A stretch of 61,447 nt of DNA from Candidatus Nanopelagicaceae bacterium (GTDB lineage Bacteria; Actinomycetota; Actinomycetes; Nanopelagicales; Nanopelagicaceae): contig VERH01000003.1 in assembly GCA_018882735.1 (NCBI GenBank), positions 1-61,447 on the forward strand, in the 5' to 3' direction. Both the position numbers and the translations under genes were made by a program. Shown in pieces: positions 19,355 through 24,679 of the stretch (positions within the stretch are counted from its first letter, which is position 1; every line of letters starts with the position of its first letter). The notes under the pieces were generated by a model. It saw only the letters and a program-made list of their open reading frames with translations, was not told the DNA's origin and searched no databases.

Positions 19355-19942
19355 TTAGATGAAGAAGTTGCCATCCACTCGAATTGTGGCGCAATCCCGA
19401 GTGTTTTCGCTCTTGAAGTGCTCTTGCTCACGGATTTGCCAAATGCGCATCTCGGTTTCGAGGTAATCACCATCTCTTCGAAGGACTCTTTGTAGTCCTA
19501 CTTCCAGATCAATATCAATCCAGATCAATTCATCGGTAAATGCCCTAGTTGCTTTTTGTCCCGAACCAACTCCCTCTAAAATCAAAAGATTTGGAGCGGG
19601 ATGTGAGATCAATTCTCCAAATGACTTATTTAGCCAATCGTATTTTCGAAAACCAAGTGCCTTTCCCTGGGTAGCAGGAGTAAGTATTTGATTAACGAGC
19701 GTGCGAGTTAATTGTGAAGTAAGTGCATCCTCCCAACCGTTGTAAAGATCATCCATATGAACGGTTAGTACTGGGCCACCTTTATAGTTTTCCGAAATAC
19801 GACGTGCCAGAGTTGTTTTGCCCGAGCCCGCGGGACCGTCAATCGAGATCGCTCGACTAAATGGAGATTTACGCGCCTCGGCATTTAGCCGCTCCAAGAT
19901 CTCCTCGAGGGAAGTACTTGTTACTTTTTTATCTTCAGCCAT
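19355..19942 (-). CDS. P-loop small-molecule kinase (uridine-kinase-like), candidate thiamine-salvage kinase
   Basis: A 195-residue cytoplasmic P-loop kinase. Walker A is GPAGSGKT (36-43) and a later LILEGVGSG strand resembles uridine/pantothenate kinase-like proteins. I chose the ATG at 19942, 22 nt inside the end of pnuT, because the fold starts just after; a longer frame adds unrelated residues. Annotation pipelines would likely say uridine kinase-like. Its place directly behind a TPP-riboswitch-controlled PnuT makes phosphorylation of thiamine or a precursor, trapping it in the cell, an attractive role. That substrate is inference from context only. Confidence 0.82.
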   Translation of the reverse strand: MAEDKKVTSTSLEEILERLNAEARKSPFSRAISIDGPAGSGKTTLARRISENYKGGPVLTVHMDDLYNGWEDALTSQLTRTLVNQILTPATQGKALGFRKYDWLNKSFGELISHPAPNLLILEGVGSGQKATRAFTDELIWIDIDLEVGLQRVLRRDGDYLETEMRIWQIREQEHFKSENTRDCATIRVDGNFFI

Positions 19943-20490
19943 CTGAATAATCCATAGATAGCTACGAGAGCAAAGACTAAATATAAGAGTGCGGTGAAGT
20001 AAAACTCTTGCCGCGCGTAGTGCCAAGTTCCGAATAAGTTGATTAAAAACCATAGCGACCAGGTCTCATGGAATTGACGGACCATAATCAACTGGGTTAC
20101 GGCGCTTGCAACCAGAAGAAGTGAGTCGGGCCATGATGCAGCAGCGCCAATCTCTGCCAGCATGGGAGCGGCGATGAGCCATAGCGCTAGCGCTGCTAAA
20201 GACCAGATCATTCTCTCCTTTGTGGTCATATAACGCGGTTCAACTCCAGTTGGCTTCCAACCAAACCATCCCCAGATTGCAGCAGCTATAAAGATGAGTT
20301 GCAGAATCGCGCTGGCAAATAAATCAACGTTGTAGAAGAAGAGACCATAGAGCGAACTACTTAGAATCCACCAAGGCCAGGCCCATCGAGTGCCTCGAGC
20401 GCCCAAAGTCACTGCTGTTAATGAGGTTATTACGGAGGCAAATTCGAGGTATGAGACTTGATATTCCCAGGCTGTGAAAAATGTATTCAT
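19921..20490 (-). CDS. pnuT: PnuC-family transporter under TPP riboswitch, probable thiamine transporter PnuT
   Basis: A 189-residue membrane protein of the PnuC family, which moves vitamins by facilitated diffusion through seven helices. Aromatic-rich helices such as WAWPWWILSSSLYGLFF and IWGWFGWKP, and GTWHYARQEFYFTALLY near the end, match the family. PnuC proper carries nicotinamide riboside; PnuT members carry thiamine and are recognised by a TPP riboswitch upstream, as here. I chose the ATG at 20490, because 8 codons of possible upstream frame lie inside the riboswitch. A Shine-Dalgarno AAAGGGG ends 6 nt before it. The next gene overlaps its 3' end. Confidence 0.88.
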   Translation of the reverse strand: MNTFFTAWEYQVSYLEFASVITSLTAVTLGARGTRWAWPWWILSSSLYGLFFYNVDLFASAILQLIFIAAAIWGWFGWKPTGVEPRYMTTKERMIWSLAALALWLIAAPMLAEIGAAASWPDSLLLVASAVTQLIMVRQFHETWSLWFLINLFGTWHYARQEFYFTALLYLVFALVAIYGLFRWLKIKK

Positions 20491-20496
20491 GTTGAA

Positions 20497-20580
20497 CCCC
20501 TTTCCAATTCGCATTACCGAACTGGTGCGACGGTCGACCCGAAGGTCCTCTCAGCCAACTTTTGGCTCCCGATTGAAAAG
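20497..20580 (-). ncRNA. TPP (thiamine) riboswitch upstream of pnuT
   Basis: On the minus strand the leader has the conserved TPP elements in order: GGGAGCC, GGCTGAGAGG, then CGGTAATGCG closing the P4 region, then GGAAAGGGG. P1 can form between CUUUUC (20580-20575) and GAAAGG (20504-20499). The Shine-Dalgarno AAAGGGG of pnuT lies in the 3' strand of P1, so ligand-stabilised P1 would hide it and stop translation. A TATGCT -10 element at 20592-20587 predicts a start near 20580, the first base of P1. No separate terminator hairpin is seen. Confidence 0.9.
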
Positions 20581-20585
20581 AAGAT

Positions 20586-20596: not shown

Positions 20597-20929
20597 GTGC
20601 TCAAGTTCGCTTACTTTGCGATGTTGACCTTTACCTTTATCGGTTCCATCTGGCTTGAGGTCTTCTTAAAAGTTGGAGTATTGCGGAGATTGAAGCGCGC
20701 CCTGCTAAGTATTTTGCCAGTTTCCATTATTTTTCTGATTTGGGACTACTACGCGGTCGCTCAAGGGCATTGGTGGTTTGACGAAAAACAAGTTGTTGGA
20801 ATTTTCGGACCGAAGGGCGTGCCGCTTGAGGAGTTCCTCTTCTTTATAGTAGTTCCGCTTGCCGCATTACTAACTATTGAGGCCGTCAGAACGCAGAAAC
20901 CACATTGGAAATTTGGTGACGAGAAGTGA
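20597..20929 (+). CDS. crtYc: Lycopene beta-cyclase subunit CrtYc
   Basis: First half of the heterodimeric membrane lycopene cyclase of Actinobacteria. About three hydrophobic segments in 110 residues, with FDEKQVVGIFGPKGVPLEE, the PxE(E) motif typical of these cyclase domains. The start is GTG at 20597 (TAGCAT 5 nt upstream). The stop overlaps the crtYd GTG as GTGA. Acts with CrtYd to close beta rings on lycopene in the cytoplasmic membrane. Confidence 0.9.
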   Translation: MLKFAYFAMLTFTFIGSIWLEVFLKVGVLRRLKRALLSILPVSIIFLIWDYYAVAQGHWWFDEKQVVGIFGPKGVPLEEFLFFIVVPLAALLTIEAVRTQKPHWKFGDEK

Positions 20930-21231
20930 CCTATACACAACTAGCGATACTGAGTGTTCTGGTGGTAATTGTTATTGATAGATATTTCCTTAAGACTCGA
21001 TTGCTCGAGAAGAAGGCCTATTGGACTGCATACGCGATTATCATCTTCTTCCAGCTACTCACAAATTGGTGGTTAACCTCGCGCAAAATCCTAAGCTATA
21101 GTGAAGAAGTAATTATTGGATGGCGGATTGCGTCAGCGCCAGTAGAGGATTTGTTCTTTGGTTTCTCAATGGTAACTCTGACTATGTCGCTCTGGATTTT
21201 CTGGGGGCGTAAAGGAATTCAGCGCGACTAG
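20926..21231 (+). CDS. crtYd: Lycopene beta-cyclase subunit CrtYd
   Basis: Second half of the heterodimeric lycopene cyclase; 101 residues with about three membrane segments and the matching motif SAPVEDLFFGFSMV (PxEx2FF). GTG start overlapping the crtYc stop, so stoichiometric expression is likely. Its TAG shares the palindrome CTAG (21228-21231) with the stop of the convergent crtB. Confidence 0.9.
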   Translation: MTYTQLAILSVLVVIVIDRYFLKTRLLEKKAYWTAYAIIIFFQLLTNWWLTSRKILSYSEEVIIGWRIASAPVEDLFFGFSMVTLTMSLWIFWGRKGIQRD

Positions 21232-22136
21232 CGGGCGCTTATCGCTCTAATCCAAGCGGGTAGAGCAACACTGATTCTTCTTAGCGTTGATGTCTTTGCT
21301 CGATACTTAAAGACCTCATAATTGATCTTTTCCACTTCATCAACAATTCCGCAATAAAGCTCACTCGCCGCTTGGATACACGGCCGTGATTCAGGGGAAA
21401 GCAACGCGATACCTTCATCAGACTCTCGCTTAAGCCTTTGAACTCGATCAATCTGAAACTTCAACGCAGCAATAATCTCTGGGGTGAGAATCCTCCGCTC
21501 CAACATGGCCCGGTTGACACCAAATTCAGCTAACTCGCGACTGGGGAGATATATACGACCTCGATCGAGATCCTCGTTAACATCTCTAATAAAGTTTGCT
21601 AACTGGAAGGCAATACCTAACTTTTCCGCCGCTTGATTTGCCGCTTCCCTTTGACCCGGGAGAGTGCCAAGGATTGGGACCATTTGAAGTCCAATCACCG
21701 CGGCTGATCCATAGACATATTCCATTAGATCATCAAAAGTTTCATATTCAGTCTTATAAAGATCCATGGCCATTGAGTGCAAAAAAGCCTCGAAGTAAGA
21801 AATCGGAAGATCAAATCGATGGACAGTATCTACTAGAGCCCTGCCGATGTGATCATCGCTTCTTCCGGCTTTAATATCTTGAAGTAATTGAAAGCTCCAT
21901 CGCTCTAGCTCTTCACGCTTTTCATGAGGAGAGAGTTTTGAATCTAAATCATCAACGATTTCGTCAGCGTATCTTGCAAAGCCATAGAGAGCATGAACAA
22001 AGGGCCGCTTACTCTTAGGAAGTAGTTGAGTGGCTAGAAAGTAAGTCTTTCCATGTTGTGAATTGAGGCGCTTGCACTCTAAGTAGGATTGACGCAGGTT
22101 TTCATCTTTAATGCCTGCTGCTTTTAACTCATCCAT
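21228..22136 (-). CDS. crtB: Phytoene synthase
   Basis: Condenses two geranylgeranyl diphosphates to phytoene. A 302-residue squalene/phytoene synthase family protein with the two aspartate-rich metal motifs: ARYADEIVDD in the first third and FIRDVNEDLDRGRIYLP in the middle. ATG at 22136, overlapping crtI by 8 bp, as last gene of crtE-crtI-crtB. The preferred C40 substrate is inferred from crtE and crtI being in the same unit. Confidence 0.95.
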   Translation of the reverse strand: MDELKAAGIKDENLRQSYLECKRLNSQHGKTYFLATQLLPKSKRPFVHALYGFARYADEIVDDLDSKLSPHEKREELERWSFQLLQDIKAGRSDDHIGRALVDTVHRFDLPISYFEAFLHSMAMDLYKTEYETFDDLMEYVYGSAAVIGLQMVPILGTLPGQREAANQAAEKLGIAFQLANFIRDVNEDLDRGRIYLPSRELAEFGVNRAMLERRILTPEIIAALKFQIDRVQRLKRESDEGIALLSPESRPCIQAASELYCGIVDEVEKINYEVFKYRAKTSTLRRISVALPAWIRAISAR

Positions 22137-23607
22137 TTCCAGTTATTCGCTCTGCAGCTAACTTTCCTGAGATTAGAACCATCGGAACACCCACTCCAGG
22201 CTGTGTTCCACTTCCGGCGAAGACGACATTCTCAAAGCCTTTAGCCATATTCCCGGGCCTAAATGGACCGGTTTGGAAAAAGGTGTGCGCACTCGCAAAA
22301 GGCGCTCCCATTTCATGTCCCATTGCCTGCCACTCAAGAGGCGTGGTCAGATGTTCAACTTCTATGGAATCACCAAAGCCGGTATATCCGCGTGACTCCA
22401 TCACTCGAACCATCTCATCTCGATAACGAGGCGCTTCACGCTTCCAATCAATGTCAGCGCTTAAATTCGGAGTAGGAAAGAGGACGTAATAGCTCTCTTT
22501 TCCTTTCGGCGCTAGTTGTGGATCATCGTGAGATGGAACTGTGACCAGCAAACTTGGATCAGTCATTAGCTTTTTCTCATCAATCAATTCTTCAAATACT
22601 CCATCCCAGGAGTCACCAAAGTGAATATTGTGATGTGCAATATGGTCGTATCGCTTGCTTGAGCCAGCAAGTAGAACCGCGCAAGAAGGGGAGTAATTCA
22701 ATCGTTGTACTCGTCGAGGAGTCTTGTTTAGGAGATCTCGATATGCAACTGGAAGGTCTGGGCTCAAAATTATGGCATCACAAGAATAGCGGGAGCCATC
22801 TTCGGTAATTGCAGAAGTGACGCGCGCGCCACTCTTTTCAAGTTCTGTTACCTTCGAGTTGTAATGAATCTTTACTCCATGTTTGGTCGCAGCTCCGGCA
22901 AGCGCTCGAGGTAGAGCATGCATTCCACCCTTCGGGAAGAAGACACCGTTTACTGAATCCATGTATGCAATCACCGCATAGATTGCGAGCGCTTGCTGTG
23001 GGGATACCCCGGCATACATTGCTTGGAATGAGTAGACCCGTTGAGTTCTTGGATCCTTTAGGAATTGTGAGACTTTAGGTGCGAGTTTGCGGAACCCACC
23101 TATTGCAATCAAGCGCGCGAGATTGGGAGTTAGGAGATTAAATGGAGTATCAATGTTCTTATCAATGAAATCGTTCATCTCATACTTATAAAGCTTGGTT
23201 ACAAAGTCCACATACCTTCGATAGCCATTAGCCTCATCGCCACCAATTACCTGGGCGATTTCATCTTCCATCTTGGATGTATCGGCGTGAACATTAAGGA
23301 TGCTGCCATCTGAATAAAAAGCTCTATATAACGGTGAGAGTGGCATTAACTCGAGCCAATCTTCCAATCGTTCACCCACACAATTCAGCGCATCTTCTAT
23401 GAGTGAAGGCATAGTTAAAACAGTTGGACCGGTATCGAAGGAGTATCCCTCTTTCTTTAACAATCCATTGCGGCCACCGGGAACCGACTCGCGTTCCAGA
23501 ATTGTTACTTCATGTCCGGCTCCTGCCAATCGCAGCGCAGCGCTAAGCCCAGAGAGTCCGGCGCCGACAATTACAACTCGATCGCGCTTGCCTTTCACTC
23601 TACGCAT
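22129..23607 (-). CDS. crtI: Phytoene desaturase
   Basis: FAD-dependent desaturase that converts phytoene to lycopene. The N-terminal dinucleotide-binding motif is VIVGAGLSGLSAALRLAGAG, followed by GGRNG; the C-terminus carries GSGTQPGVGVPMVLISG, typical of CrtI. Length (492) is normal. ATG at 23607 lies 7 bp after the crtE stop. Membrane-associated. A second CrtI-family protein at 26159-27670 is more diverged and probably acts later in the pathway. Confidence 0.94.
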   Translation of the reverse strand: MRRVKGKRDRVVIVGAGLSGLSAALRLAGAGHEVTILERESVPGGRNGLLKKEGYSFDTGPTVLTMPSLIEDALNCVGERLEDWLELMPLSPLYRAFYSDGSILNVHADTSKMEDEIAQVIGGDEANGYRRYVDFVTKLYKYEMNDFIDKNIDTPFNLLTPNLARLIAIGGFRKLAPKVSQFLKDPRTQRVYSFQAMYAGVSPQQALAIYAVIAYMDSVNGVFFPKGGMHALPRALAGAATKHGVKIHYNSKVTELEKSGARVTSAITEDGSRYSCDAIILSPDLPVAYRDLLNKTPRRVQRLNYSPSCAVLLAGSSKRYDHIAHHNIHFGDSWDGVFEELIDEKKLMTDPSLLVTVPSHDDPQLAPKGKESYYVLFPTPNLSADIDWKREAPRYRDEMVRVMESRGYTGFGDSIEVEHLTTPLEWQAMGHEMGAPFASAHTFFQTGPFRPGNMAKGFENVVFAGSGTQPGVGVPMVLISGKLAAERITGNG

Positions 23608-23614
23608 TTAAATT

Positions 23615-24679
23615 TCAACTCTTTCTTTTGGTAGCAGCAAGAGCCATATCTTCAAGGCACTTTGCAATGTTGATGTCCATTTCTGGATGCTCGAGGGCGG
23701 AAAGAGATTGATTTAACAGCTGTTCAATCAACTCTTCACATTCAGCGAGCGCACCCGAATCCTCTATCAATCCTTGGATTTCTGCGACTTGAAATGAGTT
23801 GAGAGTTGAGTCACCTAGAGAGCGTTCTATTCTCTCCCGAACATTCGAATCCGAACGCTCAGCAGTCATCGCTATCAATACCGTCCGCTTGCCCTCACGA
23901 ATGTCGTCGCCGGAAGGCTTTCCAGTTACCTTGGAATCACCAAATACTCCAAGGATGTCATCCCGCAGTTGGAAGGCTTCACCCAAGGGAAGACCAAAGT
24001 CAGATAGAGATTGCTGTAACGATTCACTTGCTCCAGCGAGCGCTGCGCCGAAACGAAGCGGTCGCTCTATTGAGTATCTTCCGGATTTGTAGCGAGCAAT
24101 CTTCCTTGAGCGATTTAAATCTGATTTACCGAGCGCACCTTCTAAGACATCTAAGTATTGGCCCGCCATCAACTCAGCTCGCATCTCATGAAAAATCGGA
24201 ATAGCTCGCTTTACTTGGAGCTCAGTTATTCCAGATTCGCTTATCATCTGATCACTCCATGCCAACGCTAAGTCGCCAAAAAGAATGGCGGCAGCTTGAC
24301 CGAATCTCTCAGAATTGCCGGAATAACCAGACTGGCTATGAAGCCCTTCGAATCTCTTATGTAGTGCGGGCTTGTTCCTGCGCGAGTCAGAGCCATCCAT
24401 GACATCATCGTGAATCAACGCGCAAACATGCACTAGTTCTAGAGCTGAACAGGCTTTGAGAACTTGCGGCGAAGGGGTTGCACCTGCAGCAAGAAATCCA
24501 AGATAAGCAAAGATGGGTCGAAATCTCTTTCCGCCATCTAAGACATACTCAGATAGCGCTTCGGCTACCGGATTTAGATGAGCATCAATAGCCATTAGTT
24601 CGGATGCTCTACTCCGGGTAAATGAATCCAATTCGCCATCAATAGCGCTACGAATCTCTGAGATTCCTGGCAAAACCAC
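23615..24679 (-). CDS. crtE: Geranylgeranyl diphosphate synthase (polyprenyl synthetase)
   Basis: Trans-isoprenyl diphosphate synthase supplying C20 units to phytoene synthase. The first aspartate-rich motif is HDDVMDGSDSRR and the second is LRDDILGVFGD; length (354) is typical. Start is GTG at 24679-24677. A TACCGT -10 element (24691-24686) is 6 nt before it, suggesting a leaderless transcript crtE-crtI-crtB. Divergent from metF with a 24-bp gap. C20 product length is inferred from the operon. Confidence 0.93.
   Translation of the reverse strand: MVLPGISEIRSAIDGELDSFTRSRASELMAIDAHLNPVAEALSEYVLDGGKRFRPIFAYLGFLAAGATPSPQVLKACSALELVHVCALIHDDVMDGSDSRRNKPALHKRFEGLHSQSGYSGNSERFGQAAAILFGDLALAWSDQMISESGITELQVKRAIPIFHEMRAELMAGQYLDVLEGALGKSDLNRSRKIARYKSGRYSIERPLRFGAALAGASESLQQSLSDFGLPLGEAFQLRDDILGVFGDSKVTGKPSGDDIREGKRTVLIAMTAERSDSNVRERIERSLGDSTLNSFQVAEIQGLIEDSGALAECEELIEQLLNQSLSALEHPEMDINIAKCLEDMALAATKRKS

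Follow-up and report, generated by a model that had tools for sequence, protein, structure and literature searches.

A predicted thiamine import-and-trap operon with a uridine kinase-like P-loop protein in Nanopelagicales

PnuT-type transporters are facilitators, and it is accepted logic that their cargo is trapped inside the cell by phosphorylation. In a bacterium of the order Nanopelagicales (acI-type), the gene of such a transporter is followed by a gene encoding a P-loop kinase, which raises the question of what this kinase phosphorylates. The locus is part of the window, i.e. the whole stretch of 61,447 nucleotides that was analysed, which lies on contig C28 of a 1.23 Mb metagenome-assembled genome (MAG) with a completeness of 90%; its closest relatives are Nanopelagicaceae MAGs. 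Three elements follow one another on the minus strand: a TPP (THI) riboswitch aptamer (20485..20581), pnuT of the PnuC family (19921..20490), and the kinase gene (19355..19942), the product of which has 195 amino acids. The two genes share 22 bp (19921-19942), and this overlap has the identical length in close relatives (e.g. L002). Our sample of the order comprises 121 genomes that are at least 85% complete and 1.0-2.2 Mb in size, incomplete MAGs among them. In 108 of the 118 kinase-bearing genomes of this sample, pnuT is immediately followed by the kinase gene (103 by coordinates, 4 by tblastn on the loci, and one, G075, counted as such although it is split over two contigs). Such conservation argues against a chance order of riboswitch, pnuT and kinase, and bears out the module with its 22-bp overlap as described in an initial annotation of this DNA.

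The default Rfam scan of the window displayed no RF00059 match at gathering score. A focused scan places RF00059 at 20581-20485 of the minus strand, at full length (positions 1-105), with 38.4 bits and an E-value of 4.7e-6. This is below the Rfam gathering score of 54.3 bits, which is a curator's cut-off and not a structural feature, and it is the sole RF00059 match in its genome. In the relatives that were scored, the PnuT-linked riboswitch has the same position and is also sub-threshold (33-42 bits). Alignment of 14 sequences displays 42 invariant columns, the CUGAGA and UAAUGC core among them, and compensatory changes in three base pairs keep the paired stems. The element upstream of pnuT is hereby confirmed as a TPP riboswitch. 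The purine-rich 3′ strand of the aptamer, GGAAAGGGG, sits just upstream of the pnuT ATG, and because it pairs in the predicted leader fold, pnuT may plausibly be controlled at the level of translation, through masking of the ribosome-binding site. The energy of this leader fold is not unusual relative to shuffled sequences (z -1.0). A U6 match on the strand opposite the riboswitch was taken as chance.

The pnuT product matches PF04973 with 130.8 bits and TIGR01528 with 75 bits, and by its position the gene is under control of the TPP riboswitch, in the window as well as in relatives. These features suggest thiamine as the cargo, and together with the literature they support the original designation of the transporter as a thiamine-type PnuT. 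In four acI strains, according to the passages on this locus in Kang 2017 (PMC5301498), a THI element precedes pnuC, which is probably a PnuT; the same strains are thiamine auxotrophs in which nearly all enzymes of de novo synthesis and salvage are missing. Lineage, riboswitch, transporter, and thiamine auxotrophy are thus the same as here, and those passages make no mention of the kinase. Hence, the riboswitch-PnuT half of the module in acI is already published. Many Nanopelagicales genomes, including that of the window, carry another PnuC-family gene at a distance from the kinase, with riboflavin or nicotinamide riboside as possible cargo.

The kinase displays the Walker A motif DGPAGSGKTT and a weak match to the phosphoribulokinase (PRK)/uridine kinase family of Pfam. 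Its nearest curated family is NF005115/PRK06547, named "hypothetical protein" (E-value 7.1e-31); with 106.9 bits it stays below the cut-off of 173. An AlphaFold2 model based on 32 homologues has a pLDDT of 93.4, and a Foldseek search with this model retrieves uridine-cytidine kinases and phosphoribulokinases at TM-scores between 0.6 and 0.7. According to the model, the kinase is of the UDK/PRK fold, and both this fold and the weak uridine kinase match agree with the earlier description of the gene product as a uridine-kinase-like P-loop protein.

The same two features would also fit an ordinary nucleoside (uridine/cytidine) kinase, or another small-molecule kinase, which pnuT would have come to precede fortuitously, with the gene order then passed on by descent. 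We consider this unlikely. On the uridine kinase profile TIGR00235 (udk), the window kinase reaches 27.8 bits, far under the cut-off of 220.3. Invariant residues of the family include D35, G36, K42, D64, Y67, W70, W103, E123, R152, and R156. Compared with uridine-cytidine kinases, the catalytic Asp is kept, but an invariant Trp (W103) takes the place of the Phe in the Y-D-F motif. In uridine-cytidine kinases, a His or Tyr after this motif recognises the base; in the 32 kinase sequences this position is not conserved, which also argues against a nucleoside as substrate. Among the NCBIfam matches listed for the kinase, TIGR01378 (ThiN/thiamine pyrophosphokinase, TPK) is absent. Nor is the kinase of the ThiK type (TIGR02721, APH fold), as its own fold is P-loop/UDK and the TIGR02721 matches of the genome lie elsewhere, below cut-off. 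Nrk1 is a distant homologue. A plasmid search with the kinase displayed distant homologues only, among them proteins on Priestia (Bacillaceae) plasmids with about 30% identity, annotated as AAA family ATPase.

The inventory of the thiamine pathway in the order narrows the question. A separate thiamine pyrophosphokinase, which had been named beforehand as a finding that would count against a thiamine kinase, is present in 0 of the 121 genomes by TIGR01378, with positive controls. ThiL is encoded in 119 genomes, thiE is above cut-off in five, and thiC is found in two; the kinase is present in 118, including all 116 without thiE. In the genome of the window, thiL is located at G000:C23:26666-27541 (TIGR01379, 196.5 bits, cut-off 184), and neither TPK nor thiE nor thiC was found. 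The expectation that thiL would be missing along with TPK was therefore not borne out, neither in this genome nor in the order. Judging from gene content, cells of the order would import thiamine and convert TMP to TPP without a known enzyme for the step from thiamine to TMP. In genomes without ThiE and with a ThiL that needs TMP, TMP must come from thiamine (or from import). ThiK (TIGR02721) above cut-off was found in none of 61 genomes, and many closed genomes are without even a weak ThiK-like match. The step is thus most readily assigned to the P-loop kinase; it could also be catalysed by another kinase that escaped detection.

Full-length APH-fold kinases that weakly resemble ThiK are present in many Nanopelagicales (e.g. 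G021:C1:1309212-1309907). They were rejected as gap fillers: they are full-length in less than half of the genomes and score far below cut-off, they occur in one kinase-negative genome as well, and they are missing from many closed genomes.

The presence of thiL also bears on the product, in that the enzyme most likely makes TMP and not TPP in one step. The initial annotation had left room for a pyrophosphokinase. Classical TPK is absent in 121 of 121 genomes, which would leave a place for such an enzyme, and in Bacteroidetes pnuT is paired with one, tnr3 (PMC5613172). However, the retention of TMP-using ThiL in 119 of the 121 genomes, although 116 are without ThiE, disfavours a pyrophosphokinase, next to which ThiL would be useless. 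Moreover, the reaction of UDK/PRK-fold enzymes that have a catalytic Asp is the transfer of a single phosphate, and we regard the formation of TPP by the kinase as very improbable.

In the ten kinase-positive genomes without an adjacent pnuT, the kinase occupies the same slot, the gap between carotenoid genes and pknB, wherever the contig shows enough. A TPP riboswitch is found elsewhere in these genomes, preceding ThiB in nine (TIGR01254 above cut-off) and a YkoE-type ECF component in the tenth (G044). The kinase goes with a TPP-switched thiamine importer of whichever kind, and not with one transporter: it is kept where ThiB or YkoE replaces pnuT under the riboswitch, and is thereby tied to thiamine import in general. 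A nucleoside kinase that merely holds its place in the chromosome would likewise be kept in this slot without pnuT. Against that stands the pattern of absence, as the kinase is missing exactly where thiamine phosphorylation is not needed. The three kinase-negative genomes belong to one genus (g8) and carry thiE together with two TPP riboswitches, one before a gene for a CytX-like putative HMP transporter and one before thiO; as they can make TMP by ThiE, a thiamine kinase is not needed. The association between kinase and thiE (Fisher p 3.5e-5) comes from this one clade and is to be read as one event.

The genus g8 (L077, L078, L083-L085, L096, L097, L099) has larger genomes in which thiE is present and the CytX-like and thiO genes are TPP-switched. 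No thiC match was found in its genomes, and by gene content the genus seems to be auxotrophic for HMP and not for thiamine.

Homologues of the kinase also occur far outside the order. Among 388 genomes sampled across the phylum, with the best eight candidates of each scored against the kinase profile, at least 69 match. Five genomes of a distant family (f9), drawn from two genera, have YkoE and the kinase on the same strand, with the kinase some 2.5 kb downstream. The order of these loci is TPP riboswitch, ykoE, ykoD, ykoC, kinase; the riboswitches score 55-64 bits, above gathering score, and the complete YkoEDC subunit set is Pfam-confirmed in L135 only. The homologue in L135 is a full member of NF005115 (200.9 bits). 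In a sister genus of f9 (L137, L139), the kinase is found near dinB, and ykoEDC is absent. In a maximum-likelihood tree, the ykoEDC-linked kinases form a single clade, apart from those of Nanopelagicales and nested among unlinked homologues. Because of this separate and nested placement, pnuT and ykoEDC were, as far as the sequences tell, linked to the kinase independently, i.e. two unrelated thiamine transporters are joined to one kinase family. Co-occurrence of the kinase family with TPP riboswitches, which had been suggested as a check, is hence found twice, linked to pnuT in Nanopelagicales and to ykoEDC in a second family.

The independent, TPP-switched linkage with ykoEDC weighs against a nucleoside kinase; the wide occurrence of the family in Actinomycetes away from thi genes would suit one. 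No thi neighbours of the kinase were found in the stretches examined in Streptomyces-sized genomes and other relatives, outside the ykoEDC cases. Among the YkoE-positive genomes of the class, at least 18 of 19 carry the kinase (best eight candidates each), and G495 is the one without a match. YkoEDC can also import HMP (PMC6593275), and a kinase acting on HMP or HET, as a precursor or breakdown product of thiamine, would be served by such a transporter. This appears extremely improbable, given that 116 of the 121 genomes of the order are without ThiE and unable to use HMP-P or HET-P, and that the genomes with the CytX-like HMP importer are those without the kinase. No strong TPK match was seen in genomes of the same class (Actinomycetes). 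Weak TIGR01378 matches in many other Actinomycetes (1e-4 to 1e-11) were not taken as TPK, because their scores stay weak; they probably stem from a TPK-like domain in a different protein.

The riboswitch, the transporter family, the gene order, a gene content with ThiL but neither TPK nor ThiE, and the co-occurrence pattern are computed features; from them we infer, with a probability of roughly 80%, a compact thiamine import-and-trap operon with a UDK/PRK-fold kinase that makes TMP and works together with ThiL. The hole in the pathway and the thi linkage point to thiamine as the most likely substrate (thiamine + ATP -> TMP + ADP). At low TPP, the riboswitch would permit production of PnuT and of the kinase encoded by the overlapping gene. 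PnuT would equilibrate thiamine across the membrane, and the UDK/PRK-fold P-loop kinase would convert it to TMP, which is thereby trapped inside. ThiL, encoded elsewhere in the genome, would then convert TMP to TPP, and binding of TPP to the riboswitch would turn expression off and close the loop. Translational coupling by the 22-bp overlap would coordinate the production of transporter and kinase.

Apart from the absence of thiL, the earlier reading of module, PnuT, trapping, and an unrecognised thiamine kinase has held up; the pathway hole and the thi linkage favour the kinase assignment, and the trapping of PnuT cargo fits the module, with the trapping step itself deduced. About two independent events (pnuT and ykoEDC) underlie the linkage, and the absence of the kinase traces to one clade (g8), so that the genome counts overstate independence. 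With somewhat less confidence, we favour the broader hypothesis that the PRK06547-like P-loop family may supply the thiamine kinase that the class Actinomycetes has long seemed to lack, as a non-orthologous replacement of ThiK and ThiN from acI to the ykoEDC-linked relatives, and perhaps in much of the remaining class.

Similar systems are known. The PnuT-Tnr3 operons of Bacteroidetes (PMC5613172) are alike in combining TPP riboswitch, PnuT, and trapping enzyme in a single operon; however, their trap is a thiamine pyrophosphokinase, whereas the order studied here lacks TPK, and PnuT is paired with a P-loop kinase dependent on ThiL. ThiK (YcfN) catalyzes the same reaction as proposed here, from thiamine to TMP, with an APH/choline-kinase fold in place of the UDK/PRK-type P-loop fold. 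PnuC and ribosylnicotinamide kinase (NadR, Nrk) likewise combine a Pnu-type facilitator with a P-loop kinase as trap, but for nicotinamide riboside, while thiamine is the predicted cargo here. The B1 salvage enzymes in a published list are ThiK, ThiM, and ThiN only (PMC6593275), and no precedent for a thiamine kinase of P-loop/UDK fold was found in the open-licence papers searched. Bacteria of the acI type rank among the most abundant in freshwater and rely on thiamine from their neighbours. If true, the proposed function would close the gap between thiamine and TPP in acI, for which no first enzyme was known, would give a role to a widely distributed family of "hypothetical proteins" (NF005115/PRK06547, with the window kinase below and the L135 homologue above its cut-off), and may improve auxotrophy prediction and culture media.

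The module is adjoined by a carotenoid cluster (20597-24679 of the window), with two half-size lycopene cyclase genes on the plus strand, and crtB, a crtI-like gene, and a polyprenyl synthase-like gene on the minus strand.
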